Virus record (IMG/VR): IMGVR_UViG_3300010885_038484
Coordinates: 1 to 34,889 of that record
From: a virus
DNA: 34,889 bases
Reading direction: 5' to 3' (one strand)
A program made the translations under genes and the position numbers. The notes under the pieces were generated by a model. It saw only the letters and a list, made by a program, of their open reading frames with translations, was not told the DNA's origin and did not search any database. Positions 7,537-28,472 of this stretch are shown one piece after another. Position 1 is the stretch's first letter. Every line of letters begins with the position of its first letter.

Positions 7537-10500
7537 ATGGCTGATTTTAGACTAGGCAGATTAAAATTTAACTGGAGAGGTAACTGGGCACCAACTACTG
7601 CCTATGTTATTGATGATATAGTTAAATTTGGTGCTAACACGTATGTTTGTACCACGAATCATACCTCAGTATCATCAGAAACAACCTGGTATGCTACTGA
7701 TCTTGCTAAGTGGTCTTTACATGTTGAAGGAATTACCAATAGAGGTGATTGGGCTCCTGCAACATATTATAAAATTAATGACTTAGTTAAGTACGGAAAT
7801 ACTCAATATAGAGTTACAACTGGATTTACCTCTGGCGGAACATTTAGTTCCTCTAACATGGTCCAGTATTTTGGTGGTTTTAACTTTGAGGCTAGTTGGA
7901 ACTCAGGCACTGATTATCAAACAGGTGACGTTGTATCTTACGGTGGATACAACTACATTGCCAAGACGGTAAATACTAATAAAGCACCGAGTTCATATAA
8001 ATCAGATTGGGATCCACTTACAAATGGATTTACATTTGTTGGTGCATGGAGCACTACTCGTTCATATATTCCTGGTGAAGTTGTAAGATTTGGTGGTTAT
8101 TCATACGTTGCAAAAAATAATATTGGTGTTGCAGGAGCAGGAAAAACTACTAGTCCTGTTGCTGTTGGATATGGTACTCAGTGGGATCTGATTGTTAAAG
8201 GTTTTGATTGGAAGAGTGCATGGTCTTCCCTCACAACCTATGAATTAGGAGATACTGTTTCTAGAAATAGCAATAGCTATGTTAGCGTTGCTTCTACTAA
8301 CTTTAACAATTCTCCTGAAACTGATGCCCTAGGTACATATTGGAATCCACTGACAGAAGGTTCAGCAACGAACGTTCTTTCTGCCACTGGCGATATGATC
8401 TATAAGAGTGGTGCAGGTGCTGCTGCTCTTACAATTGGTACTGCCGGTCAAGTACTTGGTGTTTCAACCACTGGTATTCCTAAGTGGTTAAATAACAACA
8501 CTACTTACCCAGTCTTCTATGTTTCTGAGGAAGGTAACGATTTAAATGATGGTAAGAATATTAGCAATTCATTTGCTACTATTGCTCGTGCCGTTGGTGT
8601 TGCTACAACTGGTCCTGCTACAATTTATGTAAAAGCAGGAATCTATGAGGAACAACTGCCAATCATTGTTCCTGAAAATGTAACTGTTGTTGGTGATAAC
8701 CTCAGAACTTCAACCATTACTCCTGCTACAGGCAATTCAAAAACCCAAATTCTGACAATTGATACTCCTTTTAGTGGTAATATTTCTTACGGAAGTACTA
8801 TTGCTAATGGCGCAGGAACTAAGGTTGCTCGTGTCATGGAAGCAAACTACTTCCAGAATAAGATTGAGATTATGCAGGTGAGTGGTGGCGCATGGACCAC
8901 TTCCGATACCTATGCTCCAAATGGTTCAGTAATTAGTGCAGTTGAAACTCGCACTAATGCTCAGACAACAATGTTCTACTTAAGCAGTGCTACGATGCTT
9001 AAGGATGTTCTATTGACAGGTCTGACTGGATTTGCTCCTGCAGGTGCAGTTCTGACACAGACTGGTACTATTTCGGGGACAATTCTTACTGCCTCTGGAT
9101 TATATCCCGATCTTGTTGGAACAACTGTTTCCGGTTCTGGAGTTTCTGCTGGAAGCAAGGTTGTTAACTTTATTAGTACGACTCAAGTAGAAGTTGATAT
9201 TTCTCAAACAGTTGGATCAACTCCTCTCACATTTACGGCATCTTCCAGTGATATGAATAATGCCACTGTTAAAGGTGTGTCTGTAAGACTGAATCCTTCT
9301 TCTCCAATTACCAAATCACCATACGTTTCAAACTGTTCTGCAATCACCACCGGCGGTGTTGGAGCAATTGTTGATGGTAAAACTCATGGTCAGTATGATG
9401 CTGGTCCTGTAAAATCTAACAAATCTATTGTTTTTGACTCTTGGACTAATATTAATGATGATGGTGTTGGATTCTGGGTAACAAATAATGGTGCAGCAGA
9501 ACTGGTTTCTTGCTTCACTTATTATAATCATATTTCTTACACTTCAACTCGTGGTGGTAGAATTAGATCTCTTGCTGGTAACAGTTCTTGGGGTAACTAT
9601 GGTATTGTTTCTTCTGGATATAATCAGTCAGAAGTACCTGCAACAGGTAAAGTTGAAGGACTTACCTTAAAGTATAATGTTGAGACTATAACTTCACCTG
9701 GATTCGTTCAGTATGAGAGAGTTCGTGGTGCCACATCAGGTGCTATTGGTATTATTAATTCGGTTCAAACTTCGAGTGCTACAATCTATTATACTCTTGT
9801 TACCAAAGGTCCAAACGTTGGAATCAGCTCTGGATTCCTTCAAAATGAAGTAATTCGTGGTTTGACTAGTGGTACAACTGCTAACCTGACAAATAATACT
9901 GATGCTAGCAGAGGTCAAAAAGGATTTACTTTGATTACATCAGGACTTACTACCTCTCAGGTATATGAAGGTGGTAGTGTGGAATTTGTTACAGGTAATG
10001 GATATGGTGGTACTTTATCTGGTATTGGAACTACAATTACTGGTGCAGATCCTTTCTCTTATGTTATCCAGTCAACTTCTTATACTGGTCCAGATGGTAG
10101 AGGTTCAATTGACATTCAGAGAGGTCAATTAACTACAGTTGCTGCAGGTCATACTGGTGGCATTAAGGTTATGAAGAACCTGCCATTTACTGCAAATACA
10201 ACAACACTTTCGGGTGCAGTTGGTGCTGGTGATACTGCAATTCCAGTATCTTCTACGGGTGGATTCCAGCAAGGTGGTTATATTCTTTCTCCAAGTGGAG
10301 AATTGATGCTTATCAATAGTTTCACTGGTGGAACCCAGATTAATGTTACCAGAGCATCCGAAGGAACATCTGCTTCTGGTGTGTCTGCAGGTGCTGCAAT
10401 CACTGCTATTGGATTCCCAAATACATTGGCTCCAGAAACACTGAAGGACTTTACAGGTATCTCTACACAAATGAGAGTTACCTCAACTTCAGGATTCACG

Positions 10501-11079
10501 ACTACCAATTTTGTAAGAATTGATAATGAAATTGTAAGAATATCTGCAATTCTTCCTGATACCACTGGTATTTTGATTTCTATTCTTGCTGACGAAAAAC
10601 CAAATTATGCATTTGACGAACAGACCTTGAAAATTAGATATCTGTATTCACAGGTTCGTTTAACAGGTCACGATTTCCTACAAATTGGTACTGGTAATAA
10701 GACAAATACTAACTGGCCTTCTACGCCACTGTCTAATCCTATTCCTTCAAGAGAAGTTAATGAGAGCTATCCTGGTCGTGTTTACTACGTATCCACCGAT
10801 CAAAATGGTAACTTCCGTGTTGGTAAGTACTTCCGCGTTAACCAGGCAACTGGTAGCGCAACTCTGAATGCTTCTGCGTTCGACTTGTCAGGTCTTACCT
10901 CCTTGAGACTGGGTTCTATTGGTGCTCAGTTGGGTGCTCAAATTAATGAATTCTCTGTTGACGGAACTCTGTCACAGAATAGTAATGAGAAGGTTGCCAC
11001 TCAGGCAGCAGTCAAGACTTATGTTGATACTTCAATTCTTAAGTCCAGACCATTCGCATACTGGTTAGCATCTTCTTGA
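7537..11079 (+). CDS. Large tail-fibre/tailspike-like protein with carbohydrate-binding repeats and beta-helix
   Basis: The product is 1180 aa. The first 280 residues hold five copies, around W17, W72, W120, W170 and W229, of a W-x(6)-Y-x(2)-GD-[TV]-V-x-[FY]-G-x(2)-Y-[VI]-[AC] module that resembles chitin/carbohydrate-binding modules of the CBM5/12 type. From about residue 327 comes VFYVSEEGNDLNDG, then PATIYVKAGIYEEQLPI and NVTVVGDNLRTS, the start of a pectate-lyase-like right-handed beta-helix that probably runs several hundred residues. The C-terminus (NSNEKVATQAAVKTYVD near 1155) is a typical phage fibre end module. Sugar binding and possibly polysaccharide recognition at the host surface are inferred; no catalytic acid pair can be assigned by eye. 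A weak AAGGA site precedes ATG 7537. Confidence 0.88.
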   Translation: MADFRLGRLKFNWRGNWAPTTAYVIDDIVKFGANTYVCTTNHTSVSSETTWYATDLAKWSLHVEGITNRGDWAPATYYKINDLVKYGNTQYRVTTGFTSGGTFSSSNMVQYFGGFNFEASWNSGTDYQTGDVVSYGGYNYIAKTVNTNKAPSSYKSDWDPLTNGFTFVGAWSTTRSYIPGEVVRFGGYSYVAKNNIGVAGAGKTTSPVAVGYGTQWDLIVKGFDWKSAWSSLTTYELGDTVSRNSNSYVSVASTNFNNSPETDALGTYWNPLTEGSATNVLSATGDMIYKSGAGAAALTIGTAGQVLGVSTTGIPKWLNNNTTYPVFYVSEEGNDLNDGKNISNSFATIARAVGVATTGPATIYVKAGIYEEQLPIIVPENVTVVGDNLRTSTITPATGNSKTQILTIDTPFSGNISYGSTIANGAGTKVARVMEANYFQNKIEIMQVSGGAWTTSDTYAPNGSVISAVETRTNAQTTMFYLSSATMLKDVLLTGLTGFAPAGAVLTQTGTISGTILTASGLYPDLVGTTVSGSGVSAGSKVVNFISTTQVEVDISQTVGSTPLTFTASSSDMNNATVKGVSVRLNPSSPITKSPYVSNCSAITTGGVGAIVDGKTHGQYDAGPVKSNKSIVFDSWTNINDDGVGFWVTNNGAAELVSCFTYYNHISYTSTRGGRIRSLAGNSSWGNYGIVSSGYNQSEVPATGKVEGLTLKYNVETITSPGFVQYERVRGATSGAIGIINSVQTSSATIYYTLVTKGPNVGISSGFLQNEVIRGLTSGTTANLTNNTDASRGQKGFTLITSGLTTSQVYEGGSVEFVTGNGYGGTLSGIGTTITGADPFSYVIQSTSYTGPDGRGSIDIQRGQLTTVAAGHTGGIKVMKNLPFTANTTTLSGAVGAGDTAIPVSSTGGFQQGGYILSPSGELMLINSFTGGTQINVTRASEGTSASGVSAGAAITAIGFPNTLAPETLKDFTGISTQMRVTSTSGFTTTNFVRIDNEIVRISAILPDTTGILISILADEKPNYAFDEQTLKIRYLYSQVRLTGHDFLQIGTGNKTNTNWPSTPLSNPIPSREVNESYPGRVYYVSTDQNGNFRVGKYFRVNQATGSATLNASAFDLSGLTSLRLGSIGAQLGAQINEFSVDGTLSQNSNEKVATQAAVKTYVDTSILKSRPFAYWLASS

Positions 11080-11143: not shown

Positions 11144-11461
11144 ATGGCTTCTGGAGTATTAGGGCAAGTATCTCTTGCATCTACAACAAACACAACAGTA
11201 TATACGGTGCCTTCCAGCACAATTTCTTATGTAAACGTTAACGTTTCCAATAGAAATGCTTCTGACGTTGCAGTGCGTGTAGCACTTGCTGCTACTACAG
11301 CGCCTACAAACGCTGAGTATATCGAGTATGAATCCTTCATTGCACCTAATGGTGTTTTGGAAAGAACAGGATTGGTTCTCGAAGCTGGTAGAAGAGTTAT
11401 CGCATATTCAAACTCAACAAACGTAAGCGTTAACGTTTACGGTGTCGAACAATCAGTATAA
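11144..11461 (+). CDS. Small beta-sandwich virion protein, 105 aa
   Basis: The product is a 105-aa protein, all beta by pattern and without cysteine. It contains TTVYTVPSSTISYVNVNVSN and YIEYESFIAPNGVLERTGL. The same module occurs twice in the 360-aa protein at 21150 (for example ELVLYTAPVGYNVTATVVACN and FLEYDASIEPGQTYVRKDL), so this gene is a single-domain paralogue of that virion protein. The start is supported by GGGGGAG and a perfect late promoter. It is followed after 16 bp by the 112-aa gene, likely in the same transcript. A particle-surface decoration or fibre role is inferred. Confidence 0.8.
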   Translation: MASGVLGQVSLASTTNTTVYTVPSSTISYVNVNVSNRNASDVAVRVALAATTAPTNAEYIEYESFIAPNGVLERTGLVLEAGRRVIAYSNSTNVSVNVYGVEQSV

Positions 11462-11477
11462 GGAGTAATTAACGAAA

Positions 11478-11816
11478 ATGGGACGCTTTATTTCCGCTTC
11501 TACTTTTACCTCAGAAATTGTAAACGTATCTTCTACGCCTTACACTGCTGCTGCTGGTAAAACCTATCTTGTAAATACAACATCTGCGCCAATCACTCTG
11601 AATATTCCTTCAGGAAGTGATGCAAATGTTGGAGACAGAATTGCAATCGTTGATCCTGCTGGTAACTGGGCAACTAATAATGTAACCGTAGGCATTAACA
11701 CTCTTACAACAAAGATTGCTAACCTGAACGAAAACCTTGTTCTTAACGTACCTAACAACTCAGTAGAACTTCTTTATAGTGGAACTACTTTTGGGTGGGT
11801 TCTCCTTAATACTTGA
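11478..11816 (+). CDS. Small virion protein, fibre-end module, 112 aa
   Basis: The product is 112 aa with an AAGGAG site at 11460-11465. The body, from VNTTSAPITLNIPSGSDAN to ELLYSGTTFGWVLLN, aligns by eye with residues 60-149 of the MTD-type fibre protein at 6678: both have a prolonged TVTLP/TLNIP strand, a VGD[RY]I.I[VI]D motif, and a C-terminal VEL[VL][WY].G..[FW]W strand. It is therefore a stand-alone copy of a fibre module, most likely a small structural protein. No enzyme motif is seen. Downstream lies an AGGAG ribosome site for the first Cys-rich gene. Confidence 0.78.
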   Translation: MGRFISASTFTSEIVNVSSTPYTAAAGKTYLVNTTSAPITLNIPSGSDANVGDRIAIVDPAGNWATNNVTVGINTLTTKIANLNENLVLNVPNNSVELLYSGTTFGWVLLNT

Positions 11817-11855: not shown

Positions 11856-13052
11856 ATGGCTAATTTAAGAGATTTAATTGATTATACAAACAAAGCAGGT
11901 ATTCAGACATCCCAATCATTGGGAGCAGTAGTTGCACCTCCAGCATCTCCAAATGCTGGTATTGCTGCCACTGCATTTGCTCCAAGTTTTCCCGGATCTG
12001 CATATAAGCAGATTAAGTATCGTGGCAATCATTGCTGTGGTGCATATTCTTGCTATTGGGAATGTTTTATGTGGAGACCTCCTATGGGGACCACATTCCT
12101 TAAGTTTGAAATCTGGGGCGGCGGCGGCAGTGGTGCTGGTGGATGCTGTTGTGGATGGGGAACTCCTGGTGGGTCTGGCGCATATGCATATAAGTGTATT
12201 TGTAGTGCAACTGATTTAGGTGGTTGTGTTTATGAATTCTGTATTGCAGGATCATCTTGTATGCCACCAGATGTCTATGGAGTTAAGGGATATAAAACTT
12301 TTGCCGTTGGATATGGATTAGATAATTTCTGTGCCGAAGGAGGACTTGGTGGGAACTGGAATTGTCAATATTCCCCTCCATGGACTATGACATGTTTTTG
12401 TGATTATCCAGTAATATGTGGAGATGGAGCAAGACTTAATACCAATGCTTATTGTACTGCCACTAATGGAGTATTCCTTAATGTATGTGATTGTCTGACT
12501 CCAGGGCAATTGTACGGAACTGGTATGATTAGTCCATATGACATGTATGATAATTGCCGTTTCTCTTGTGGTAGACTGGGAACTGGATATTATGATTTAG
12601 TTGGTGCTGGAAATACATTTGGATCTGGTGGCAAAAGAGTTAGACAAAATCATACTTTAAATCCTTGCTATGGTGGTGTTTGTTATATTTGTACGTTCTG
12701 TGCTCCATATTTTGGTGCAGATGGAGGTTCTCGTGGAATTCCTGGTGGTCTTGGATCTCCTTGCAACCATGATGCAAGTGATTATTGTATGATTCAACAA
12801 TATTTGCCTTATCCTGGCGGATTAATTAATACTCGTGGTGGATGGGTAACTCAGAGAACCTGTGGAATTCTTCAATGTAGTGCAGTATATAATGCTCTAC
12901 CTGGAGAATACTTTGGATATACTTCAACCACAGATAGTGACGGTTATGGTGCAATTCCTGGAATGGGTGGAAGATCTACTTTTGCTTATTGTGGTTATTG
13001 TTATTGTGGTGGCCCTGGATCTGGCGGGCAACTTATCATTACTTACGGTTAA
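11856..13052 (+). CDS. Gly/Cys-rich virion adhesin-like protein A (398 aa, 33 Cys)
   Basis: This is the first of three tandem paralogues. It has 33 cysteines in 398 residues (about 8%), many in CC, CCC or CxC arrangements. The N-terminus begins MANLRDL, as in its paralogues. Around residue 86 is the shared core FEIWGGGGSGAGGCCC, followed by PGGSGAYAYK; near the middle are NFCAEGG and YFGADGG; the C-terminus ends GGQLIITYG. The FEIWGGGG...GAG pattern resembles the glycine-rich domain of many phage tail fibres, but the cysteine load is unusual. There is no signal peptide, and cysteine spacing does not match a known zinc or haem family by eye. A beta/polyglycine adhesin stabilised by disulfides or metal is the best inference. 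AGGAG at 11845-11849 supports the start. Confidence 0.85.
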   Translation: MANLRDLIDYTNKAGIQTSQSLGAVVAPPASPNAGIAATAFAPSFPGSAYKQIKYRGNHCCGAYSCYWECFMWRPPMGTTFLKFEIWGGGGSGAGGCCCGWGTPGGSGAYAYKCICSATDLGGCVYEFCIAGSSCMPPDVYGVKGYKTFAVGYGLDNFCAEGGLGGNWNCQYSPPWTMTCFCDYPVICGDGARLNTNAYCTATNGVFLNVCDCLTPGQLYGTGMISPYDMYDNCRFSCGRLGTGYYDLVGAGNTFGSGGKRVRQNHTLNPCYGGVCYICTFCAPYFGADGGSRGIPGGLGSPCNHDASDYCMIQQYLPYPGGLINTRGGWVTQRTCGILQCSAVYNALPGEYFGYTSTTDSDGYGAIPGMGGRSTFAYCGYCYCGGPGSGGQLIITYG

Positions 13053-13063
13053 GGAGAAGAACA

Positions 13064-14023
13064 ATGTCAGATTTAAGAAAACTTTTAAATACAGAAAACC
13101 AATCTGAACTTCAAAAACGTACTTGTGGATTTCAGTCCACACAGTGGGGAAGTGGTTGGGGCAATGTTCTTCTTGATGGATTCACTAATTATTATCCAGG
13201 ATATTGCTGGACGGATAATTGTGATAGTAATTATCGTCAATGGTGTCCTGGTTTTTGTGTAATTCCTGGAGTAACCACCGTCCAGTTTGAAATCTGGGGT
13301 GGTGGTGGAAGTGGTGCCGGTGCCTGCTGCTGCCAACAAGGTTCTCCAGGGGGATCTGGTGCATATGCAATGAAGACTCTTTGTGCTAGCGATCTTGGAG
13401 TTGATACTCTTGGTGGTATGTGCTATTTGCTTTTTATTGCACCTCCTACTTGTTGTTCTGCTTGTTGTGTGGGACTTCAGGGGTGTAAATCTTATATTAC
13501 TGGTTGTGGTCTCTCTAACTTCTGTGCTGACGGAGGAATGCCAGGAAGAACTTGTTGCTATATCTTCCATGATTCTCATGGAGCAAACTTAACTGGAACA
13601 TGGGGACCTGGAGGAACTGGTAAGAGTGCATGGAACTCTGCTGGATGCTATACTCTTGATCCAGTTTCCGGAACCTGTTATGCTTGTGATTGTGCCTGTT
13701 ACTATGGTGCAGACTTTGGTGTTGCAGGTAGACCTGGTTGGTTCCGTGTAGATTGTATCTGCGGTAACAATTGCTTTATAAGAACTGGTCTTGCACAGCC
13801 GGGTGGATTTAGAGACAAATGCGTTAGATATGTTATTCATAGAAATGAAGGCAATGCTTGTGGAAATCAAAGAAATTCTTGTGTAATGGGTGAGTGGTCT
13901 GGTGGAGTTCAATGTGGTAATGGTATGAGAGGGCAAGGAGCTCCATCTGCAACATCATGTGCTGGTGGTTGCTGCTACGGATGGAGGGGCAGCGCAGGTC
14001 TCATTAGAATTACCTACAGATAA
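13064..14023 (+). CDS. Gly/Cys-rich virion adhesin-like protein B (319 aa, 34 Cys)
   Basis: The start is ATG 13064, chosen because AAGGAG lies at 13051-13056 and the resulting N-terminus (MSDLRKLLNTEN) aligns with its two paralogues; the frame is open further upstream but overlaps the previous gene. The product has 34 cysteines in 319 residues (about 11%), the densest of the three. The shared core FEIWGGGGSGAGACCC lies near residue 82, with PGGSGAYAMK, NFCADGG, YYGADFG and a C-terminal AGGCCYGWRGSAGLIRITY. Only 11 bp separate it from protein A. The role is inferred as for protein A; copy-to-copy variation lies mainly in the N-terminal third and the loops between shared motifs. Confidence 0.85.
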   Translation: MSDLRKLLNTENQSELQKRTCGFQSTQWGSGWGNVLLDGFTNYYPGYCWTDNCDSNYRQWCPGFCVIPGVTTVQFEIWGGGGSGAGACCCQQGSPGGSGAYAMKTLCASDLGVDTLGGMCYLLFIAPPTCCSACCVGLQGCKSYITGCGLSNFCADGGMPGRTCCYIFHDSHGANLTGTWGPGGTGKSAWNSAGCYTLDPVSGTCYACDCACYYGADFGVAGRPGWFRVDCICGNNCFIRTGLAQPGGFRDKCVRYVIHRNEGNACGNQRNSCVMGEWSGGVQCGNGMRGQGAPSATSCAGGCCYGWRGSAGLIRITYR

Positions 14024-14026
14024 ATA
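14019..14026 (+). promoter_or_regulatory. T4-type late promoter box (GATAAATA)
   Basis: GATAAATA overlaps the stop codon of protein B and lies 22 bp before the ATG of protein C, giving the third paralogue its own possible late start. Confidence 0.5.
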
Positions 14027-14048
14027 CTAATACAGGGATATTTAAGAA

Positions 14049-15020
14049 ATGGCAAACCTTAGGACTTTATTAGGAACATCGGATACTAATTTTACCGGTA
14101 TTCATTCTGGTGGCATTGGTAGACTGAGAGAAGGTCAAGTAACCTACTTCATGGCTCATATGTGTGGTAATTGTAACTCATATGAGTTGACATGTTGCCA
14201 AGCTCCTGCTGGTGACTATACATCGGGTTACAATAACTTTAGTTACTGCTGCTGGAAAGTTCCTTCCTATCCTGGTGTAGGAACAACCGTAATCACCTTC
14301 GAAATCTGGGGTGGCGGTGGTGGTGGCGCAGGCGCTTGCTGCTGTGCTTATGGTATTCCTGGTGGATCTGGTGCATATGCATATAAGTCGGTCATTGGAG
14401 TCACATCTGGAACTGTCTATAACTTCTGCATTGGATCCCCTGCTTGCAGAACGTCAGATCCAGCAGGAACTGATGGTTGTAAGACATATGTAACTGGTAT
14501 TGGACTAACTAACTTCTGTGCTAATGGTGGGTTCAAAGGTTGCAGTTACTGCTCTTGCTGCTTAACTGGTGCGGGATTATGCCACTTTAAGACAGCAATT
14601 GGCAATACCGATAGACCAGTTGATGGTTATGGTGGATATCAAGATGTTGTTGGTTTAAATACGTCTTGTGTTGGATGCTGTGCTTTATACTACGGTGCTG
14701 ATGGTGGCGCTGTTGGTGTTCCTGGTGCATATCAATTAAACTGTACCATGACTAGACTATGGAATAAGTTCTTTATCCCATTTCCTGGTGGACTTGTAAA
14801 TCAGAAAGGTGGACATGTTGTTTGGCAACAATGTGATAATTCGACTTGTGGATTTAATGCTCAGTGTAATGCAGCAGCCCAACTTGGATTTGGCGGGCAA
14901 TCGGAACTTAATTATGTTCCTGGTTTGGGTGGTCCTTCTGCTGTTGTTTGTGCTGGTGGTTGCTGCTGTGGAACTCAGGGATGGGCTGGTGCGGTTCGTG
15001 TAACCGTTCGCTACGTCTAA
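14049..15020 (+). CDS. Gly/Cys-rich virion adhesin-like protein C (323 aa, 29 Cys)
   Basis: This is the third paralogue: MANLRTLLGTSD at the N-terminus, 29 cysteines in 323 residues (9%), the core FEIWGGGGGGAGACCC near residue 84, PGGSGAYAYK, NFCANGG, YYGADGG, and the end motif AGGCCCGTQGWAGAVRVTV. The order of shared motifs is the same as in A and B, so the three arose by tandem duplication, but they have diverged strongly between motifs. A possible late promoter (GATAAATA) sits just upstream. A role in the outer tail-fibre or adhesin apparatus is inferred from its place among fibre genes. Confidence 0.85.
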   Translation: MANLRTLLGTSDTNFTGIHSGGIGRLREGQVTYFMAHMCGNCNSYELTCCQAPAGDYTSGYNNFSYCCWKVPSYPGVGTTVITFEIWGGGGGGAGACCCAYGIPGGSGAYAYKSVIGVTSGTVYNFCIGSPACRTSDPAGTDGCKTYVTGIGLTNFCANGGFKGCSYCSCCLTGAGLCHFKTAIGNTDRPVDGYGGYQDVVGLNTSCVGCCALYYGADGGAVGVPGAYQLNCTMTRLWNKFFIPFPGGLVNQKGGHVVWQQCDNSTCGFNAQCNAAAQLGFGGQSELNYVPGLGGPSAVVCAGGCCCGTQGWAGAVRVTVRYV

Positions 15021-15062: not shown

Positions 15063-15917
15063 ATGGCTATTATCAAAAAGAAATTTACTTATGATTTACC
15101 AGATGAATATCTGGCACAAACAAAAGATCTTGGTTTGAAAGGTGAGTGGGACTATGAAGGTCCTGATAAAATCTACGTTCATGTGAGTAAGGCAACAAAT
15201 CTCATGATATATCATTGTGGTTGTCAGATGCATGATGATAGCAGAACTCAGGAAGAAAACGACCATTCTATGGACGTTTATACTGGACTTGATGCCTATC
15301 ATGCTCCAATTGAGTTTGATAAAGATCCTGTCTTACTTTCTTGCTTCTTCCCTAAGATTGCTAGTGATATGCATCAAAAGGAATATAAGCATCCTGTAAC
15401 TGGAGAGGTTTTTTACAGCAGACCGGATCCAATTATGCCAGATCATACTATTCAACTTGATCAGGTTGAGTATGATCTTGAAAAAAAAGAATGGAAACCA
15501 TATCCAATGAGACAACCTCATATTATAAGAGAGGATTTTGAGGCAGCCCATCGTACTATTTTAGCAAATCATACTGCAACCGAAACAGAAAACTTTACTT
15601 CATCGCAAAAGAAAAAGTGGTCTGATTTCATTAAGGAATTTGAAAATGTTCCTACAAAGTTTGCTGATTATATGGATACACCTTGGATGGTTCCATTTCC
15701 AATAGATCCAAGAATGGATGAAAAGTGGGGAGTTGAAAATGATGGATTGATTCCCGAAACAGAAATTACTTCAAATCCTGATGCTGGCGAAATTGCACCT
15801 TTAGAACTTCCATTTGAAGATAATAGAGGATATGATTATGATGCACTTGCTGAAGCAGAATTAACTGAGGAGCAAAAGATGGCACCTGAACCTCCTGATG
15901 AGTTTAAGATTTCCTGA
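15063..15917 (+). CDS. Unrecognised protein following the adhesin array, possibly fibre assembly or virion protein
   Basis: The product is a 284-aa acidic protein, not recognised. The N-terminus is MAIIKKKFTYDLPDEYL. The middle is rich in Pro, Asp and Tyr (HPVTGEVFYSRPDP, then IQLDQVEYDLEKKEWK). Residues 190-235 (KKKWSDFIKEFENVP) have the 'R/KxxWxxYRxxLRxiP'-like look of small tail-fibre assembly chaperones, but the match is weak. The C-terminus is very acidic. The gene is the last before a strong terminator and sits directly after the three Cys/Gly-rich proteins, so a role in their assembly is possible. That is inference from position only. Confidence 0.75.
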   Translation: MAIIKKKFTYDLPDEYLAQTKDLGLKGEWDYEGPDKIYVHVSKATNLMIYHCGCQMHDDSRTQEENDHSMDVYTGLDAYHAPIEFDKDPVLLSCFFPKIASDMHQKEYKHPVTGEVFYSRPDPIMPDHTIQLDQVEYDLEKKEWKPYPMRQPHIIREDFEAAHRTILANHTATETENFTSSQKKKWSDFIKEFENVPTKFADYMDTPWMVPFPIDPRMDEKWGVENDGLIPETEITSNPDAGEIAPLELPFEDNRGYDYDALAEAELTEEQKMAPEPPDEFKIS

Positions 15918-16016: not shown

Positions 16017-17183
16017 ATGAGACCAAAAGCATTTTTTGTGAATGGCGGAGCGGGGCGTGTAGTTTGCTCTATTCCAGCATTTGAAAAATATCAAGAAGAA
16101 AATCCTGATGAAGATTTCCTGATTGTCTGTGAAGGCGGAACAGATTTCTTTAAAGGTCATGCAACACTTTATCCAAGAGTTTACGATCATTGGCATAAAA
16201 ATCTCTTCAGGGATAAACTGAAGGATATGGATATTGTAACGACAGAACCATATAGAATCTGGGAATACTATAATCAAAAGTGTAATCTGTCCCAGGCTTT
16301 TGATATTCAAATCAACGGTAAAGGTATTAGAGAACTTCCAAAACCAACCATTAAACTTTCCAGACAAGAATATATTAGTGGTAAGTTTGTCTTAGAAGAT
16401 GTAAGACAAAAAACGAAAAAAGATAAGATAGTTATTTTTCAACCATTTGGTCGTGGAACTCAAGTGATGGGTAATTTTATCACTGATTCCAGTGGTAGAA
16501 GTTTTGAAATGGCGAATGTAGTTGGACTTGTTAAAAAATTGCAGAGAAAGTATGCTGTGATTTATATGGGAGAAATTGAAATTGATTTCCAAAAAGAAGG
16601 ATGCAAAGATCCTGTTGCTACTCCAAGAGGCATTGATTTGAGAGCATGGGCTGGTATTATTGGTGAGTCTGATCTTTTCCTTGGATGTGATTCTGTAGGA
16701 CAACATCTTGCATATTCCCTGGATATTCCTTCGGTAGTCGTAGTGGGTGCTACATGTAAAGAAAATATTTCTTATCCAAATTGTGATAAGTTTGAAGTTC
16801 TTGATATGGGTGAGGGTCTGAGAATCTATGATCCTATTCGCATTACAATGGATGAGGTAACTCAACGTGTTAATGATGGAATCATGGCAATGAATGATAA
16901 GATTGAAGATGTTATCATTCAATCTATCGACAAATTGATGAACAAATATTATGTCAAGAAGAATGAAAATATTGTTCTTCCAACGATGGATCAACAGCAA
17001 CAATCTTGCGGTATGCCTCCAGCAGCGCCAGTTGGTAGTTTGACCGGAGCACCAGCACCAGAAGTTGTACTTTCTTCAAATAAGCAAAGAAAGAGTGCTA
17101 TTGACGAATTGATGTCCGAGGCAGTAAAATCTTCTAATGGTACTAAAAAGTCAACAGGATTTCTTGATACGATTCAAAAATAA
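16017..17183 (+). CDS. GT9/heptosyltransferase-like glycosyltransferase
   Basis: The product is 388 aa. The N-terminus FFVNGGAGRVVCSIPAFEKY matches the 'G.iGD.v...P....' opening of family 9 (GT-B) glycosyltransferases such as the LPS heptosyltransferases. The second Rossmann half has IVIFQPFGRG near residue 142 and DLFLGCDSVGQHLAYSLDIP near 219-238, the counterpart of the 'd.vig.DSg..HlA.alg.p.v.lfG.t' nucleotide-sugar site. Residues after about 325 form an added low-complexity tail (Gln run, Pro/Ala-rich, then Ser/Lys-rich) that is not part of the fold. It is the first gene of a cassette with heptose-nucleotide genes, so ADP- or NDP-heptose is the likely donor. The acceptor is unknown: virion protein or host envelope glycan. 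Confidence 0.8.
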   Translation: MRPKAFFVNGGAGRVVCSIPAFEKYQEENPDEDFLIVCEGGTDFFKGHATLYPRVYDHWHKNLFRDKLKDMDIVTTEPYRIWEYYNQKCNLSQAFDIQINGKGIRELPKPTIKLSRQEYISGKFVLEDVRQKTKKDKIVIFQPFGRGTQVMGNFITDSSGRSFEMANVVGLVKKLQRKYAVIYMGEIEIDFQKEGCKDPVATPRGIDLRAWAGIIGESDLFLGCDSVGQHLAYSLDIPSVVVVGATCKENISYPNCDKFEVLDMGEGLRIYDPIRITMDEVTQRVNDGIMAMNDKIEDVIIQSIDKLMNKYYVKKNENIVLPTMDQQQQSCGMPPAAPVGSLTGAPAPEVVLSSNKQRKSAIDELMSEAVKSSNGTKKSTGFLDTIQK

Positions 17184-17199: not shown

Positions 17200-18885
17200 A
17201 TGACGATTATTGCATCAATTGCCCGTGGTCACAACGGGAGCACAACTTTAATGAAGGATGGTGAGATCATCTTTTATCTTGAGGAAGAACGCCTTTCTAA
17301 GATGAAGTATGATGGGTCACCTCTTCTTGGTCTGGCAAAAGTATTTGACTATGTAGATCATATCGATCACCTTGTAGTTTGCCATACTCATCGTCATGGT
17401 CCTCAATTAGATTGGACTGGTGAAGATCTATATCATGGTTGGGTGAGGAAACTTGCTAAGAAAAAGTTTGATTTTAAAGTTCATTTTATTGATCTAATTC
17501 ACCATGAAATGCACTCTGCATGTGGTTTTTATAACTCAGGTTTTGAAACTGCCGCATGTGTAATTGCAGATGGTGCAGGTAGTTTCCTTCAGTATGAAAA
17601 TATTGATGAGGTTCTGTTTGAATTTGAAACTATCTTCAAGGCTTCTTATCCCAAAACTTTTGATGTAGTTTATAAGCATATTGGTACTAAAGCAGCAATT
17701 GGTTGCAACCAACTTGATGCTGGAGTATTTGTTACTGAGTATCCTGGTCATACAAAAATGTATGAGGCAGTAACAGAGTATTGTGGTTTCCCTGCGATTG
17801 AGGCAGGTAAACTGATGGGTCTTGCTCCTTATGGTAAACCAAATGAAGACCTTCCTAAGTTCTTCAGTAATGGTTGGGGAAATCGTGAGTTGATTATTCC
17901 CACATATCCAAATGCTGCTAAGATTAATGTTGGCAGATATCCTATTCTTATTAAGGATGTTGAGAATCATCAAGAAGGTCAGTATACTGATATTCAAAAG
18001 GATATGGCATATGCGATTCAGGAAGCAACTGAGAATCGTATGATCGAACTGATCCGCAAGGCTCATGAAGAAACTGGTGAAACAAACATCGTTATTTGTG
18101 GTGGTTATGGACTGAACTGTGTTGCAAACTATAAGTATCTTCAGGCATTCCCCGATCTGAATATCTATTGTGAACCAATTTCTCATGATGGCGGCACTTC
18201 AATCGGGGGTGCTAACTACATCTGGCACGATGTTTCTGCTAAGAAAGAGGTTAAGAAGCAAGCATCTGTTTACTACGGTCCTCAGTACGATCCTACTACA
18301 TACGAAGATGCTCTTAATGGACTTGAAGTAACTGATACTTCTTATGATGAAGTTGCAAAACTGATTCGTGAAGGCAATATTGTTACCATATATCAGGGTC
18401 GCTCAGAAGGTGGTCCTCGTGCTCTGGGTAATCGTTCTATTCTCTTTGATCCTACCATTAAGGATGGCAAGGACATTGTGAATGCGGTCAAGCATCGTGA
18501 ATGGTTCCGTCCTTTTGCTTGTTCTATTAAGCAAGATAAAGTTAATGATTGGTTTGATCTGGCTGGTCGTGATGAAACTCCTCACATGATGTATGCTGTC
18601 AAGTGTCATTCTGGAGTTGAAGAAAAGATTCCTTCAGTGATTCACGTTGATGGAACCTGCCGCATTCAGACAGTAACTACAGAACAGAACGAGCACTACT
18701 ATAATCTGATTGATGCCTTTGAGGAACTGAGTGAAGTTCCCATTCTGTTTAATACAAGCTTCAATCTTGGTGGAGATCCTCTGGTTGAAACTGTTGAAGA
18801 TGGTGTTAATACCTTGAAGAGGTGTGATATTGAGTATATGTATCTTCCTGAAATTCAGAAACTTGTTTATATTCCTAACGAATGA
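17200..18885 (+). CDS. NodU/CmcH-family O-carbamoyltransferase
   Basis: The product is 561 aa, the normal length for this family, which transfers a carbamoyl group from carbamoyl phosphate, through carbamoyl-adenylate, to a sugar or antibiotic hydroxyl. The N-terminal ASKHA-like domain starts IIASIARGHNGSTTLMKDG and has a HHEMH metal-site motif at residues 101-105 and DGAGS near 124. The C-terminal YrdC-like domain has EGGPRALGNRSILFDP near 403 and HREWFRPFA. The two-domain order and motifs are as in TobZ and NodU. It overlaps the next gene by four bases (ATGA), so translation is coupled. In Pseudomonas aeruginosa the LPS-core heptose carries a carbamoyl group, so with heptose genes adjacent, heptose is an attractive acceptor here, but this is inference. 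Confidence 0.93.
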   Translation: MTIIASIARGHNGSTTLMKDGEIIFYLEEERLSKMKYDGSPLLGLAKVFDYVDHIDHLVVCHTHRHGPQLDWTGEDLYHGWVRKLAKKKFDFKVHFIDLIHHEMHSACGFYNSGFETAACVIADGAGSFLQYENIDEVLFEFETIFKASYPKTFDVVYKHIGTKAAIGCNQLDAGVFVTEYPGHTKMYEAVTEYCGFPAIEAGKLMGLAPYGKPNEDLPKFFSNGWGNRELIIPTYPNAAKINVGRYPILIKDVENHQEGQYTDIQKDMAYAIQEATENRMIELIRKAHEETGETNIVICGGYGLNCVANYKYLQAFPDLNIYCEPISHDGGTSIGGANYIWHDVSAKKEVKKQASVYYGPQYDPTTYEDALNGLEVTDTSYDEVAKLIREGNIVTIYQGRSEGGPRALGNRSILFDPTIKDGKDIVNAVKHREWFRPFACSIKQDKVNDWFDLAGRDETPHMMYAVKCHSGVEEKIPSVIHVDGTCRIQTVTTEQNEHYYNLIDAFEELSEVPILFNTSFNLGGDPLVETVEDGVNTLKRCDIEYMYLPEIQKLVYIPNE

Positions 18886-19283
18886 AAAAAGTTTTTGTAA
18901 ATGGCACTTTTGATTTACTTCATTCGGGTCATATACATCTCCTAAACTATGCAAAAAGTTTAGGAGACTTTTTGTATGTGGCAATTGATACTGATGAAAG
19001 GGTCAGAGAAAAGAAGGGTTCATCAAGACCAGTTTATAGTTTAGAAGAAAGAATCTTTCATTTACAAAATCTTAAACCCGTAGATGTGGTTCTTTCTTTT
19101 GGAACTGACGAACAGTTAGAAGATCTTGTAAAAATTACAAAACCTGATATAATGGTTGTAGGATCTGATTGGAAAGGGAAACCTATTATTGGTTCCCAGT
19201 ACGCTAAAAAATTTGTATTTTTTGATCGAATAGAAGAATATGCCTCAACAAAAACAATACAAAGTATTATTGATCGGAGATAG
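18882..19283 (+). CDS. rfaE2: Heptose-1-phosphate nucleotidyltransferase (RfaE2/HldE C-terminal domain type)
   Basis: The product is 133 aa, a single nucleotidyltransferase domain. The active-site motif GTFDLLHSGH is at residues 8-17 and the C-terminal STKTIQSII matches the ST-T-x-I-I signature. GSSRPVYSLEERI and MVVGSDWKGKPIIGS align by eye with the C-terminal domain of E. coli HldE, which couples D-glycero-beta-D-manno-heptose 1-phosphate with ATP to give ADP-heptose. Glycerol-3-phosphate cytidylyltransferases share the first motif, but the kinase next door favours heptose. It overlaps the carbamoyltransferase by 4 bp and the kinase by 44 bp, so translation is probably coupled. The two HldE activities are thus split into separate overlapping genes with the transferase first, the reverse of the domain order in E. 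coli HldE. Confidence 0.85.
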   Translation: MKKVFVNGTFDLLHSGHIHLLNYAKSLGDFLYVAIDTDERVREKKGSSRPVYSLEERIFHLQNLKPVDVVLSFGTDEQLEDLVKITKPDIMVVGSDWKGKPIIGSQYAKKFVFFDRIEEYASTKTIQSIIDRR

Positions 19284-20001
19284 TTGTGAGGACGAATACA
19301 TCTATGGAAAGTGTGAGCGTCTAAGTCCTGAAGCTCCAGTACCTGTAATGAAGTTTTCAAAGACAGAAGTGAAGGCAGGTATGGCAGGTAATGTATGCCT
19401 CAATCTTCAGGCATTTGATATGCATATTACTTTTCTTACAAATTCTGAGAAGATTGTAAAGACACGGATGATTGATGAAAAATCTAATCAACAACTTCTT
19501 CGTGTGGATGTTGAAGATACTGTGAAACCTCTTCACCTACCAGTGTCAACAGATAGCTTTGATGCTGTTGTTATTTCTGATTATAACAAAGGATATGTGA
19601 CGGATAAAAAGTTGTTTGAAATTGTGAGTGAATGCAAAGTTCCTATTTTTATTGATAGTAAAAAGCAATATCTACCAAACAAGAAAAATTGCTTTGTAAA
19701 AATTAATGATATTGAATATTCTAAATTGAGTCAAGATTGTCAAATAGATAATCTAATAGTAACCAAGGGTGGTGAGGGATGCCTATATAATAACACTTTG
19801 TATCCTGCAGAAAAAGTAAAGGTATATGATGTAGCAGGTGCTGGTGATACCTTCCTTGCTGCTTTAGTTTATGGGTATCTTCATTATGATAACATTGAAA
19901 AATCAATTATACTTGCAAACAAGGCAGCCGCAACCGCAGTTCAAAATCAGGGAACTTATGTATTAACGGAGGATGATGTGAATGGATTCTTGCAAGATTA
20001 A
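19240..20001 (+). CDS. rfaE1: Heptose-7-phosphate kinase (RfaE1/HldE N-terminal domain type, compact)
   Basis: The product is a 253-aa PfkB/ribokinase-fold protein. Near residue 10 is LLIGDSCEDEYIYG followed by ERLSPEAPVPV, the hallmark of the HldE kinase domain; NQQLLRVDVED matches its substrate-lid region; GAGDTF at 200-205 gives the catalytic base D203. The enzyme would phosphorylate heptose 7-phosphate at C1. It is about 60 residues shorter than the usual 315-aa kinase domain, with a deletion after AFDMHITFL where the lid and part of the first subdomain normally lie. Whether it is still active is uncertain, but all core motifs remain. It starts inside the nucleotidyltransferase gene (44-bp overlap) and overlaps the cupin gene by 20 bp. 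Confidence 0.83.
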   Translation: MPQQKQYKVLLIGDSCEDEYIYGKCERLSPEAPVPVMKFSKTEVKAGMAGNVCLNLQAFDMHITFLTNSEKIVKTRMIDEKSNQQLLRVDVEDTVKPLHLPVSTDSFDAVVISDYNKGYVTDKKLFEIVSECKVPIFIDSKKQYLPNKKNCFVKINDIEYSKLSQDCQIDNLIVTKGGEGCLYNNTLYPAEKVKVYDVAGAGDTFLAALVYGYLHYDNIEKSIILANKAAATAVQNQGTYVLTEDDVNGFLQD

Positions 20002-20344
20002 GATGGTCCCCAAGGGATGGGGATTTGAGAAATGGATTGTAAATAATGAAGAGTATTGTGGAAAACTTCTTTACTTTGTGAAGGGCGGTAAATGCTCTTT
20101 CCATTATCACATTTTAAAGGATGAAACTTTCTATATTCAAAGTGGAAAGATTCTTCTTAAGTATAGTACTTCTGATAGTATTGAAGAATCTCAAGAAATA
20201 ATCCTCTCCCAAGGTGATAGGTTTCACGTTGAGAGAGGATTGAGACATCAAATGATTGCTCTGGAAGATACTGAGATGTTTGAGTTCTCAACAAAGCATT
20301 ATGATAGTGATAGTATTAGGGTTATTCCTGGAGATACTGTTTGA
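19982..20344 (+). CDS. Cupin-fold protein, possible sugar-phosphate isomerase
   Basis: The product is 120 aa, a single cupin barrel. The first cupin motif is complete (G36, H41, H43, E48, G55, in GGKCSFHYHILKDETFYIQS), and the second has GDRFHVERGLRHQM (H89), so a His/His/Glu/His metal site is preserved. An N-terminal KGWGFEKWIVN resembles the type-II mannose-6-phosphate isomerase cupins. It ends the + strand sugar operon, with its 3' end overlapping the convergent epimerase gene by 23 bp. A classical GmhA sedoheptulose-7-phosphate isomerase is absent from the cassette, so this cupin could supply an isomerase or epimerase step, but substrate assignment is speculative. Confidence 0.8.
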   Translation: MDSCKIKMVPKGWGFEKWIVNNEEYCGKLLYFVKGGKCSFHYHILKDETFYIQSGKILLKYSTSDSIEESQEIILSQGDRFHVERGLRHQMIALEDTEMFEFSTKHYDSDSIRVIPGDTV

Positions 20345-21110
20345 CAGTTTTAAATTTGTAATCACCCAACCAATTCATATCAGCACAAGTATATGATTGG
20401 TATTTGCCAATTAAATGATCTGGAAAGGGAATGGTATTGATTTTACCATTCTCTTTTTTTGTAACCAATTCTGCTACCTCTTGAAATGATATTGGATTTG
20501 CTGTGCCAATATCATAGATACCACTTGGAGCATCGTTATTTAAAACAATATCCACTACGTCATCAACGCAAACAAAGTCACGAAGAAACTTATCAGATCC
20601 ATCAAAAAGATTCAGTTCTCCAGTTTCCCTGATTTGTTTTGTAAACTTACTAATAGGACTGGCCTGATCGCCTTTATGATCTTCTCCATTACCATAGACA
20701 TTAAAGTACCTGAATCCTTGAATCAAAGGAAACTTATTAATGTTATCTAATACACAATAATCTACTTGCAGTTTTGAAATTGCATACTGATTCAAGGGAT
20801 TAATTTGCCCTTGAGTATTTCCATATACTGAAGCAGATGATGCATACTTAAATGGAATTTGATATTCCATTGCATACTCTAAAAGAAACAATGTGAATGC
20901 AACATTGTTGTGGTATATGGTGCGAATATTTTTTTCGGTTGTAGATGAGATGGCACCTTGATGAAGAATGAGTTCTACTTTATCCCACTCATCAAAGTCT
21001 CTAAGAAACCTGAAGGCATCATCTTTTTCAATTAAAATCACATCTTTATCTTCCAATTTCTTTAAAAAATTTTGTCCGATAAATCCAGCGTGTCCTGTTA
21101 ATACAATCAT
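20322..21110 (-). CDS. hldD: ADP-heptose 6-epimerase-like NAD(P)-dependent epimerase (HldD type)
   Basis: The product is a 262-aa extended short-chain dehydrogenase/reductase. Its Rossmann motif TGHAGFIG lies at residues 5-12. GAISSTTE near 52-59 is the characteristic HldD signature, SSASVYG supplies the catalytic Ser, Y109xxxK113 is the catalytic pair, and FRYFNVYG...EDHKGDQAS and FLRDFVCVDDV are HldD-type. It would convert the D-glycero to the L-glycero form of ADP-heptose. At 262 aa it is somewhat shorter than the 310-aa E. coli enzyme. It runs opposite to its partner genes, overlaps the cupin 3' end by 23 bp, and starts 39 bp from the divergent 360-aa virion gene. No good ribosome site precedes ATG 21110. 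Confidence 0.88.
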   Translation of the reverse strand: MIVLTGHAGFIGQNFLKKLEDKDVILIEKDDAFRFLRDFDEWDKVELILHQGAISSTTEKNIRTIYHNNVAFTLFLLEYAMEYQIPFKYASSASVYGNTQGQINPLNQYAISKLQVDYCVLDNINKFPLIQGFRYFNVYGNGEDHKGDQASPISKFTKQIRETGELNLFDGSDKFLRDFVCVDDVVDIVLNNDAPSGIYDIGTANPISFQEVAELVTKKENGKINTIPFPDHLIGKYQSYTCADMNWLGDYKFKTVKQYLQE

Positions 21111-27610: not shown

Positions 27611-27850
27611 ATGTGTGGAAATATAGTCATGCCAGAAAGACAGGAAGAAAAATCAAAATCTGAATACAACATCAATCGAGGATTTGAATTGATGCTAAGA
27701 AAGGCATCTAAAGAGAAAAAAGAAATAAACCATCCAAAAAAATTTCAAATTAAATTTGGTAAAATCTTTTCTTTTTTAGACGTAGAATTTTCTTTTAATT
27801 TTGATTTATACTTAGACTTTAAGAAAAGTTCAGATCAAATAAAAAGGTAG
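27611..27850 (+). CDS. Small basic protein of unknown function
   Basis: ATG 27611 gives 79 residues; TTG 27593 and ATG 27629 are other in-frame choices and none has a convincing ribosome site, so the start is uncertain. The product is Lys/Glu-rich in its first 45 residues (RQEEKSKSEYNINRGFELML, then KASKEKKEINHPKK) and ends in a Phe-rich stretch FSFLDVEFSFNFDLYLDF. No domain is recognised and no membrane segment is convincing. Its 3' end overlaps the convergent bilin reductase gene by 32 bp. It lies 33 bp after glutaredoxin and is probably cotranscribed with it. Confidence 0.6.
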   Translation: MCGNIVMPERQEEKSKSEYNINRGFELMLRKASKEKKEINHPKKFQIKFGKIFSFLDVEFSFNFDLYLDFKKSSDQIKR

Positions 27851-28472
27851 AAATATATCTCTCAGAAAAATCTGAATCAAAGTATGCCTTTAGAATTCCA
27901 TAAGCTGGATCTGTGACTGCCAGATGAGTATCATATCCTTTGTGAAGGGAATATGAAGACATTGTTTGTGAAGATTCTTTGAGGCAAGATTTAAACCGGT
28001 TTAAATATGCATCAACAACTTTTAAATAGTCTTCATAAAAATCTGTTTCTTTCCTTTTAATCCAAAACTTTTTAGAAAAATACTTATCTAAATCGTATAT
28101 TTTGGAGACATCCATATCCCGGTTTGGCAAGTCGCCAAGATATTTTTGAATATATTTTCTATTGTATTCCTCATCCATTTTAAGAGGATGAAGATCAACA
28201 GCACCAAAGAATTTTTTATTGCTCATTTTTAAATATTCTGTTCCCAGAATAGGAGTTTCGTAGCAAAATTCTGGATAGATAACCAAAGTTTCTGCGGAAA
28301 ATTTATTTTTAATATTTAATTCGCATAATCTAATTTTTCTTATCCGATCACTCTTCCAAGTATAAGATTTGATAATTGCATTATTCTTAACAACTTCTTC
28401 TTTTAACCATGATGGCAGTTGAAGCGACTCCGCATCTGGAAATATTTCAAGTATCTTATCCTTTAGTTTCAT
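27819..28472 (-). CDS. Ferredoxin-dependent bilin reductase (PebA/PebS/PcyX group)
   Basis: The product is 217 aa on the minus strand. The pattern IKSYTWKSDRIRKIRLCELN, VIYPEFCYETPILGTEYL, FFGAVDLHPL, then LAVTDPAYGILKAYF and a terminal YISTFLFD follows the whole length of the bilin reductase family, most closely PebA-type enzymes by eye. D93 (in VDLHP) and D188 (in TDPAYG) correspond to the two catalytic aspartates of phage PebS. It would reduce biliverdin or dihydrobiliverdin towards phycoerythrobilin or a related phycobilin, using ferredoxin. It is a little short for the family (about 230-250). The haem oxygenase often beside it in cyanophages is not in this window. The exact product cannot be read from sequence. 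A late-type box (28492-28499, minus strand) precedes it. Confidence 0.83.
   Translation of the reverse strand: MKLKDKILEIFPDAESLQLPSWLKEEVVKNNAIIKSYTWKSDRIRKIRLCELNIKNKFSAETLVIYPEFCYETPILGTEYLKMSNKKFFGAVDLHPLKMDEEYNRKYIQKYLGDLPNRDMDVSKIYDLDKYFSKKFWIKRKETDFYEDYLKVVDAYLNRFKSCLKESSQTMSSYSLHKGYDTHLAVTDPAYGILKAYFDSDFSERYISTFLFDLNFS

Follow-up and report, generated by a model that had tools for sequence, protein, structure and literature searches.

Cysteine-rich adhesin-like paralogues beside a GT9-like glycosyltransferase gene in a cyanophage-type virus record

The cysteine-rich trio and its surroundings

The virus record IMGVR_UViG_3300010885_038484 was analysed over its positions 1-34,889, and this whole stretch of 34,889 nt (hereafter the window), whose gene content includes cyanophage-type tail genes, PhoH and a bilin reductase, carries three consecutive open reading frames (ORFs) for cysteine-rich adhesin-like paralogues (Table 1). 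Our best overall reading, held tentatively, is that these proteins form a heteromeric adhesin tip whose cysteines would accept phage-encoded glycosylation. A previous sequence-only reading had described three related tandem proteins and, by contrast, other fibre proteins with almost no cysteine; its sizes and counts (8.3-10.7% cysteine) were confirmed. Cysteine makes up 0.89% of the 27 other listed genes (84 of 9453 residues), with 0-0.7% in the tail genes between 1728 and 11816 and 0.18-0.26% in the large fibre genes. The motif order that it proposed is real as well, since the three proteins align end to end with more than 70 invariant columns, including blocks such as FEIWGGGG.GAG.CCC, PGGSGAYA, NFCA.GG and [YF]GAD.G, at a pairwise identity of only about 35-42%. 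All three match the profile phrog_4205 (function unknown) with E values of 1.2e-49, 1.7e-62 and 3.1e-63 for paralogues 1 to 3, over positions 18-284, 25-284 and 1-283 of 287 and thus over most of its length, which establishes a true family rather than a chance resemblance. The claimed clustering of cysteines (CC, CCC and CxC) held in part: against 2000 composition shuffles, the eight CC pairs of paralogue 3 (shuffle mean 2.55) were reached in 0.15% and its CCC count in 2.65%, whereas clustering in paralogues 1 and 2 did not exceed composition. The middle cysteine of the CCC motif is invariant in all 124 aligned members. The trio shares a brief N-terminal motif presumed to serve docking, M-x-[ND]-L-R-x-L-[LI], paralogue 1 has an additional stretch inside its glycine-rich part, and an alternative upstream TTG start at 12989 would extend paralogue 2 to 344 aa.

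AlphaFold2 models were computed for single chains of paralogues 3 and 1, the former from an alignment of 124 relatives. The paralogue 3 model (m6260659c40b1) reached a mean pLDDT (predicted local distance difference test) of 78.8 and a pTM (predicted template modelling score) of 0.80, with 153 residues at or above 90; over residues 1-60, which show only short helices, confidence is mostly low, with 12-25 and 39-60 poor. The model of paralogue 1 (m4fee891be420; mean pLDDT 67.5, pTM 0.68) presents the same strand order, with helices at 4-9 and 13-22 and low confidence over residues 173-279. By model and structure match, the trio is predicted to adopt a TNF-like beta-sandwich with a projecting glycine-rich lattice: the paralogue 3 model aligns with the Pam3 fibre 7ypx over 195 residues (Z 16.8, root-mean-square deviation 3.2, 20% identity; Foldseek E 2.4e-5), followed by Pam3 7yfw (Z 16.3), the Bxb1 tail tip (13.3) and ALK/LTK (7.5-9.1), the next entries standing at 3.5. 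In the Pam3 head, which likewise combines a TNF-like sandwich and a glycine-rich lattice, receptor binding has been ascribed to the distal ends of the lattice (PMC9608196). Many BFVD fold matches are named glycine-rich domain-containing protein, and the Pfam model Gly_rich_2 (PF21722) is matched at E 0.1 or better by 65 of the 124 aligned relatives (best 3e-12), ALK_LTK_GRD by one of them. Taken singly, the trio proteins match nothing in Pfam at E 1, Gly_rich_2 included, a sequence search of the PDB with the trio gave nothing useful, and S16 gp38 is absent among the fold matches listed for paralogue 3. Together with the place of these genes in the tail-fibre block of isolates, the fold and the Gly_rich_2 matches uphold the earlier description of adhesin-like glycine-rich heads, and each trio protein is very probably a receptor-binding (adhesin) head.

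The same block occurs in Synechococcus phages S-CAM3 and S-CAM1, in S-SSM7 and Sf-FS3, and in Prochlorococcus phage P-SSM2, in the order large tail fibre, (small tail genes), cysteine-rich genes, a gene at the phrog_9740 place (by position), GT9-like glycosyltransferase, carbamoyltransferase and sugar-nucleotide genes, the fibre ahead of the cysteine-rich genes being again of the phrog_9851 type. One additional gene precedes the glycosyltransferase in S-SSM7 and Sf-FS3, and in P-SSM2 a cysteine-free gene (L092:8837-9514) separates its two cysteine-rich genes; that gene and the phrog_9740 protein of the window, which are of similar length, are possible partners or chaperones. PfkB, CTP_transf_like and Epimerase domains are adjacent in the window with a putative heptose substrate, and the isolate homologues of the kinase are annotated as ADP-heptose synthase or heptose kinase. 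The place of the cupin, matched by gene order only, is annotated as cysteine dioxygenase in isolates; a role as cysteine-oxidising enzyme was considered and is not favoured; a gene so named is also found in phages lacking the trio.

Table 1. Coordinates of the trio, its subfeatures and neighbouring genes in the window
Feature	Coordinates	Strand	Basis
Large tail fibre (phrog_9851)	7537..11079	+	PHROG match
Small tail-fibre-like protein	11144..11461	+	phrog_11338, E 3e-9
Small tail protein	11478..11816	+	phrog_31104, phrog_9648
Cysteine-rich adhesin paralogue 1, 398 aa, 33 Cys (8.29%)	11856..13052	+	open ORF
Cysteine-rich adhesin paralogue 2, 319 aa, 34 Cys (10.66%)	13064..14023	+	open ORF
Cysteine-rich adhesin paralogue 3, 323 aa, 29 Cys (8.98%)	14049..15020	+	open ORF
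Residues 62-323 of paralogue 3, predicted TNF-like and glycine-rich head	14232..15017	+	mostly high-confidence part of model
CCC motif, residues 97-99 of paralogue 3	14337..14345	+	alignment of relatives
phrog_9740 protein, function unknown, cysteine-poor (3 Cys / 284 aa)	15063..15917	+	PHROG match
GT9-like glycosyltransferase (phrog_8954)	16017..17183	+	PHROG match; weak Glyco_transf_9
Carbamoyltransferase	17200..18885	+	PF16861 and PF02543 over cut-off
Nucleotidyltransferase, HldE C-domain-like	18882..19283	+	PF01467, E 1e-17
PfkB kinase, HldE N-domain-like	19240..20001	+	PF00294, E 2e-18
Cupin	19982..20344	+	PF07883, E 7e-8
Nucleotide-sugar epimerase, HldD-like per isolate annotation	20322..21110	-	PF01370, E 2e-25
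Ferredoxin-dependent bilin reductase	27819-28472	-	PF05996, E 7e-30

Copy number and orthology across lineages

Family searches worked with an alignment as query, paralogue 1 alone having matched nothing in viral contigs or by phage tblastn, and 704 phrog_4205-family members were collected from 257 loci; a genome scan returned five metagenome-assembled contigs, which we provisionally take as phage fragments and not as cellular in origin. Copies were counted at the 163 of 256 loci with 1.5 kb on both sides, 135 of them distinct. Among the distinct complete loci, three copies were present in 64 of 67 for the window lineage (two loci with four, one with two) and in all 26 for the S-SSM7 lineage, and two copies in 41 of 42 for the P-SSM2 lineage. 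Two window-lineage contigs (L068 and L072) display four tandem members. In a tree of 110 sequences, kept from 168 unique ones after two similarity filters, the position of the gene within its array required 6 changes against 51.6 with shuffled labels, and paralogue 2 was orthologous to the position-2 genes of other contigs. A second tree covering the three lineages (93 rows from 35 loci picked for difference, with a long-branch warning in the output) gave 9 changes against 65.4 and placed every lineage in a group of its own, the window lineage with a support of 84 and the other two with 100 and 99; window paralogue 1 fell nearer to the position-3 group, and positions were partly mixed in the S-SSM7 lineage. 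The N-termini also differ by lineage, being of the M-x-N-L-R-x-L-L, SYKK or coiled-coil-like DVL type.

Since each lineage groups alone and position mostly defines the branches within it, either multiplication occurred separately per lineage or the copies were evened by gene conversion, and the number then stayed fixed. The trees thus indicate that the split of the paralogues is old and that same-position genes are orthologues. Tandem duplication for host-range diversification, above all a recent one, is therefore not the best reading in the form proposed: if the adhesins could stand in for one another, their number ought to differ between loci, whereas the trio count is lineage-fixed and orthology follows position. 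The same two observations lead us to suggest that the three proteins may depend on one another and build a single tip together, its simplest form being a hetero-trimer with one TNF-like head of each kind (1:1:1), a proposal to which we give even chances.

Association of cysteine-richness with one glycosyltransferase family

The glycosyltransferase gene is present in 193 of the 200 family loci that extend 3.5 kb downstream. The converse was assessed in a contig set keyed on the glycosyltransferase. It comprises Vibrio phage SBP1 and the 80 contigs whose enzyme scored as most similar to that of one marine virus, out of at least 563 relatives; this set shares contigs with the family-keyed one, and SBP1 and S-CAM3 have IMG/VR copies in L346 and L074, respectively. 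With a threshold of at least 8% cysteine in 150 residues, a cysteine-rich ORF was found in 73 of the 81 loci and in 67 of the 71 with at least 3 kb upstream. Of 601 other ORFs of at least 150 residues in these loci, 15 passed the threshold, and these are taken to be proteins of the pre-glycosyltransferase slot themselves. At 12 of the 81 loci the cysteine-rich ORFs lie outside the phrog_4205 family; that of L300, a fragment of 121 residues, may be a truncated member of the family. By blastp, these outside-family ORFs and the isolate fibres sorted into 12 clusters separate from the trio, an uncertain clustering owing to low-complexity masking.

A search of the phage collection with the glycosyltransferase returned a closed set of 53-55 records, namely the trio-bearing cyanophages, the single-cell AG-345 virus records, Vibrio phages and Aeromonas phage HJ05. 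The records AG-345-P14 and AG-345-O18, which retain the neighbouring genes but not the trio family, encode, in or near the slot, cysteine-rich proteins (26/282, 73/758 and 31/290 cysteines per residues) without a match to any family model. In Vibrio phages SBP1, K479 and D505 and in HJ05, whose glycosyltransferase is only distantly related, the fibre adjacent to it is the most cysteine-dense ORF examined, ranking first of 38 (bases 1-66,000), of 9 (20 kb), of 6 (16 kb) and of 62 (nearly the whole record), respectively. S-BM3 and Pelagibacter phage Mosig share the N-terminus of the large fibre, have no such glycosyltransferase, and their slot proteins are cysteine-poor. Altogether, there is a strong two-way association between cysteine-richness and one glycosyltransferase family, rather than with a fold.

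Several individual loci deserve description. Giant cysteine-rich proteins outside the family lie upstream of the glycosyltransferase at L275:3312-6878 (131 Cys / 1188 aa), L272:3714-6026 (99 Cys / 770 aa) and L274:2892-6308 (108 Cys / 1138 aa). SBP1 has a second tail fibre gene (L266:12250-14811), its second most cysteine-dense ORF examined, and its glycosyltransferase may have two substrates. In four contigs (L296, L318, L338 and L345) the glycosyltransferase stands in another context, with no cysteine-rich neighbour; it is followed by an ORF resembling, by eye, an SGNH hydrolase and, in the three that reach far enough, by a carbamoyltransferase-like ORF. The four of 71 loci with no cysteine-rich ORF show such a hydrolase-like ORF next to the enzyme.

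Concerning the transferred sugar, the window enzyme resembles Glyco_transf_9 (PF01075) weakly (11.3 bits, E 0.21; curated cut-off 22 bits) and is linked by tblastn (E 3e-12) to the SBP1 homologue, which passes that cut-off with 25.4 bits. The first PDB match of the Vibrio/Aeromonas glycosyltransferase profile is the ADP-heptose lipopolysaccharide (LPS) heptosyltransferase 1psw, again weakly (E 0.027). The PfkB kinase, CTP_transf_like and carbamoyltransferase genes are found in all five glycosyltransferase-bearing cyanophages and in none of the four Vibrio/Aeromonas phages. Vibrio and Aeromonas carry heptose in their LPS. The LPS of marine Synechococcus WH8102 and CC9311 is reported to contain neither heptose nor 3-deoxy-D-manno-octulosonic acid (PMC4515613). 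The split in sugar genes would therefore fit an ADP-heptose product, which Vibrio and Aeromonas hosts would supply and marine Synechococcus would not.

A candidate S-glycosylated tip and its alternatives

These observations may be assembled into the following mechanism. The N-terminal segment would dock each head, with the TNF-like sandwich carrying the glycine-rich lattice outward, and the three paralogues would assemble into one heteromeric tip. The kinase, nucleotidyltransferase and epimerase would make ADP-heptose, from which the GT9-like enzyme would put a sugar, most likely heptose, onto cysteines of the adhesins; the carbamoyltransferase may then modify the attached sugar, and the surface that the tip presents would be dense in S-linked sugar. 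That cysteines are the acceptors, with heptose the likeliest sugar, is the part of this putative chemistry that we favour, at somewhat less than even chances. With still more reserve, we propose a new phage glycosylation system, in which a GT9-like transferase would S-heptosylate dozens of adhesin cysteines, served in cyanophages by a phage ADP-heptose pathway and carbamoyltransferase; such a system would have driven unrelated marine, Vibrio and Aeromonas fibres to become cysteine-rich, its substrate in the window lineage being an obligate three-chain tip of TNF-like/glycine-rich heads.

Alternatively, once outside the cell, the glycine-rich lattice may be held together by disulfides or by metal bound to its cysteines, the glycosyltransferase then modifying something else, e.g., fibre serine/threonine residues or the host surface. 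This is the metal or disulfide stabilisation put forward by the sequence-only reading, and we consider it rather unlikely. It would agree with the CC/CCC clustering of paralogue 3, with the fold shared by the ALK glycine-rich head, an extracellular domain, and with conserved core cysteines. The window lineage has five core columns with more than 90% cysteine, the S-SSM7 lineage 19; however, 18 columns of the window lineage lie between 20 and 80%, so that the non-conservation of positions named beforehand as grounds for refutation is half borne out. Family members contain on average 9.7% cysteine (range 5.7-12.6) over 346 distinct members, de-replicated from the 691 of 704 used, and even counts occur in 48% of these; nor was there an even bias in the locus sums (65 of 135 even). 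Association between cysteine columns was not clearly wider than between glycine columns (standard deviation 0.18 vs 0.155), one strong cysteine pair (63/130) looking like a lineage marker, and cysteines lie outside strands and helices no more than length predicts (8 of 29 inside in paralogue 3, 9.2 expected). The variance of total cysteine relative to independence (ratios 1.4, 0.59 and 1.02 in the three lineages; glycine 1.32, 0.74 and 0.76) gave a mixed test of a held-constant total, and nothing is drawn from these ratios. Parity, co-variation and placement are thus negative or neutral for disulfides and still compatible with them, while a purely structural role leaves unexplained why other glycosyltransferase-adjacent proteins are also cysteine-rich.

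Each of the three proteins could also act on its own, as a homotrimer or a monomer, and recognise a different receptor, the set being retained for host range. Their modest mutual identity would suit this explanation, as would Pam3 gp24, which is homotrimeric with variable distal glycine-rich tips (PMC9608196); the nearly invariant copy number within a lineage, the conserved order and the docking motif common to all three speak for obligate partnership instead, and we regard independent adhesins as doubtful. Less probable still is a mere host-surface gene island in which cysteine-richness would be a by-product of co-location. Large LPS gene clusters are known from several cyanophages (PMC3037559), and heptose-type genes occur without the glycosyltransferase, namely in three checked cyanophages that also lack the phrog_4205 trio (S-T4, P-TIM68 and S-SM2); nevertheless, the pairing recurs with a different fibre in the Vibrio phages and the Aeromonas phage, whose records have no carbamoyltransferase, PfkB or CTP_transf_like gene.

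Several points weigh against the S-glycosylated heteromeric tip that we prefer. It is built from genes and predicted folds, S-glycosylation, complex and virion presence all being putative, and the genes of a module may be co-inherited even when enzyme and substrate never meet. The window glycosyltransferase, taken alone, stays below the Pfam cut-off, and the cyanophage profile matches no heptosyltransferase in the PDB. The occurrence in S-T4, P-TIM68 and S-SM2 means that heptose-type genes are not specific to the glycosyltransferase or the trio, and the lack of sugar genes in the Vibrio/Aeromonas phages might be due to their smaller genomes alone. In addition, the two copies of the P-SSM2 lineage fit a simple 1:1:1 trimer badly, so that a 2:1 arrangement or another partner would be needed, and the association has exceptions on both sides, with 7 of 200 family loci lacking a downstream glycosyltransferase and 4 of 71 glycosyltransferase loci a cysteine-rich ORF.

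If cysteines are indeed sugar acceptors, we know of no earlier case of a viral adhesin with such dense S-glycosylation, and this would give one reason why some cyanophages carry heptose genes when the LPS of marine Synechococcus is without heptose. If the trio is obligate, the receptor-binding tip would be hetero-oligomeric; the phage fibres known to us to date are homotrimers. The small Vibrio phages offer a testable candidate enzyme-substrate pair. Whether such heptose genes of cyanophages are functional or stuffer DNA has been left open (PMC3037559), and the same paper reports 41 virion proteins for S-SM1. Among the open PMC papers listed by our searches, no title or displayed abstract dealt with cysteine-rich phage fibres or their glycosylation, and our literature search found no virion proteomics of trio-type proteins.

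Among known systems, the closest likeness is to the Pam3 fibre gp24, in which a myocyanophage fibre likewise ends in a TNF-like and glycine-rich head with a GGGGxGG-type motif. Unlike the trio, gp24 is the product of one gene; it forms a homotrimer, its N-terminal part being a long bundle of helices, and the word cysteine is absent from the main text of the paper describing it (PMC9608196). Phage proteins of the Gly_rich_2 family, matched by 65 of the 124 aligned relatives, differ in cysteine content. The T2/S16-type gp38 adhesin also bears glycine-rich motifs and variable loops at the fibre tip (PMC12892980, PMC9608196), with a beta-helix domain in S16 gp38 where Pam3 gp24 has the TNF-like one (PMC9608196). 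The TNF-like/glycine-rich domain of ALK/LTK belongs to the same fold class as the predicted trio head, in an animal receptor for which no common descent is claimed. On the enzyme side, a likeness to GT9 heptosyltransferases is seen in the PF01075 match of the SBP1 homologue and in weak PDB matches to LPS heptosyltransferases; those enzymes act on LPS, whereas we propose cysteine in a phage fibre as acceptor. Glycocin S-glycosyltransferases, as for sublancin, likewise put sugar on a peptide cysteine, but they belong to another glycosyltransferase family and modify one cysteine in a small peptide. A glycocin encoded by a prophage has been published (PMC6391423).

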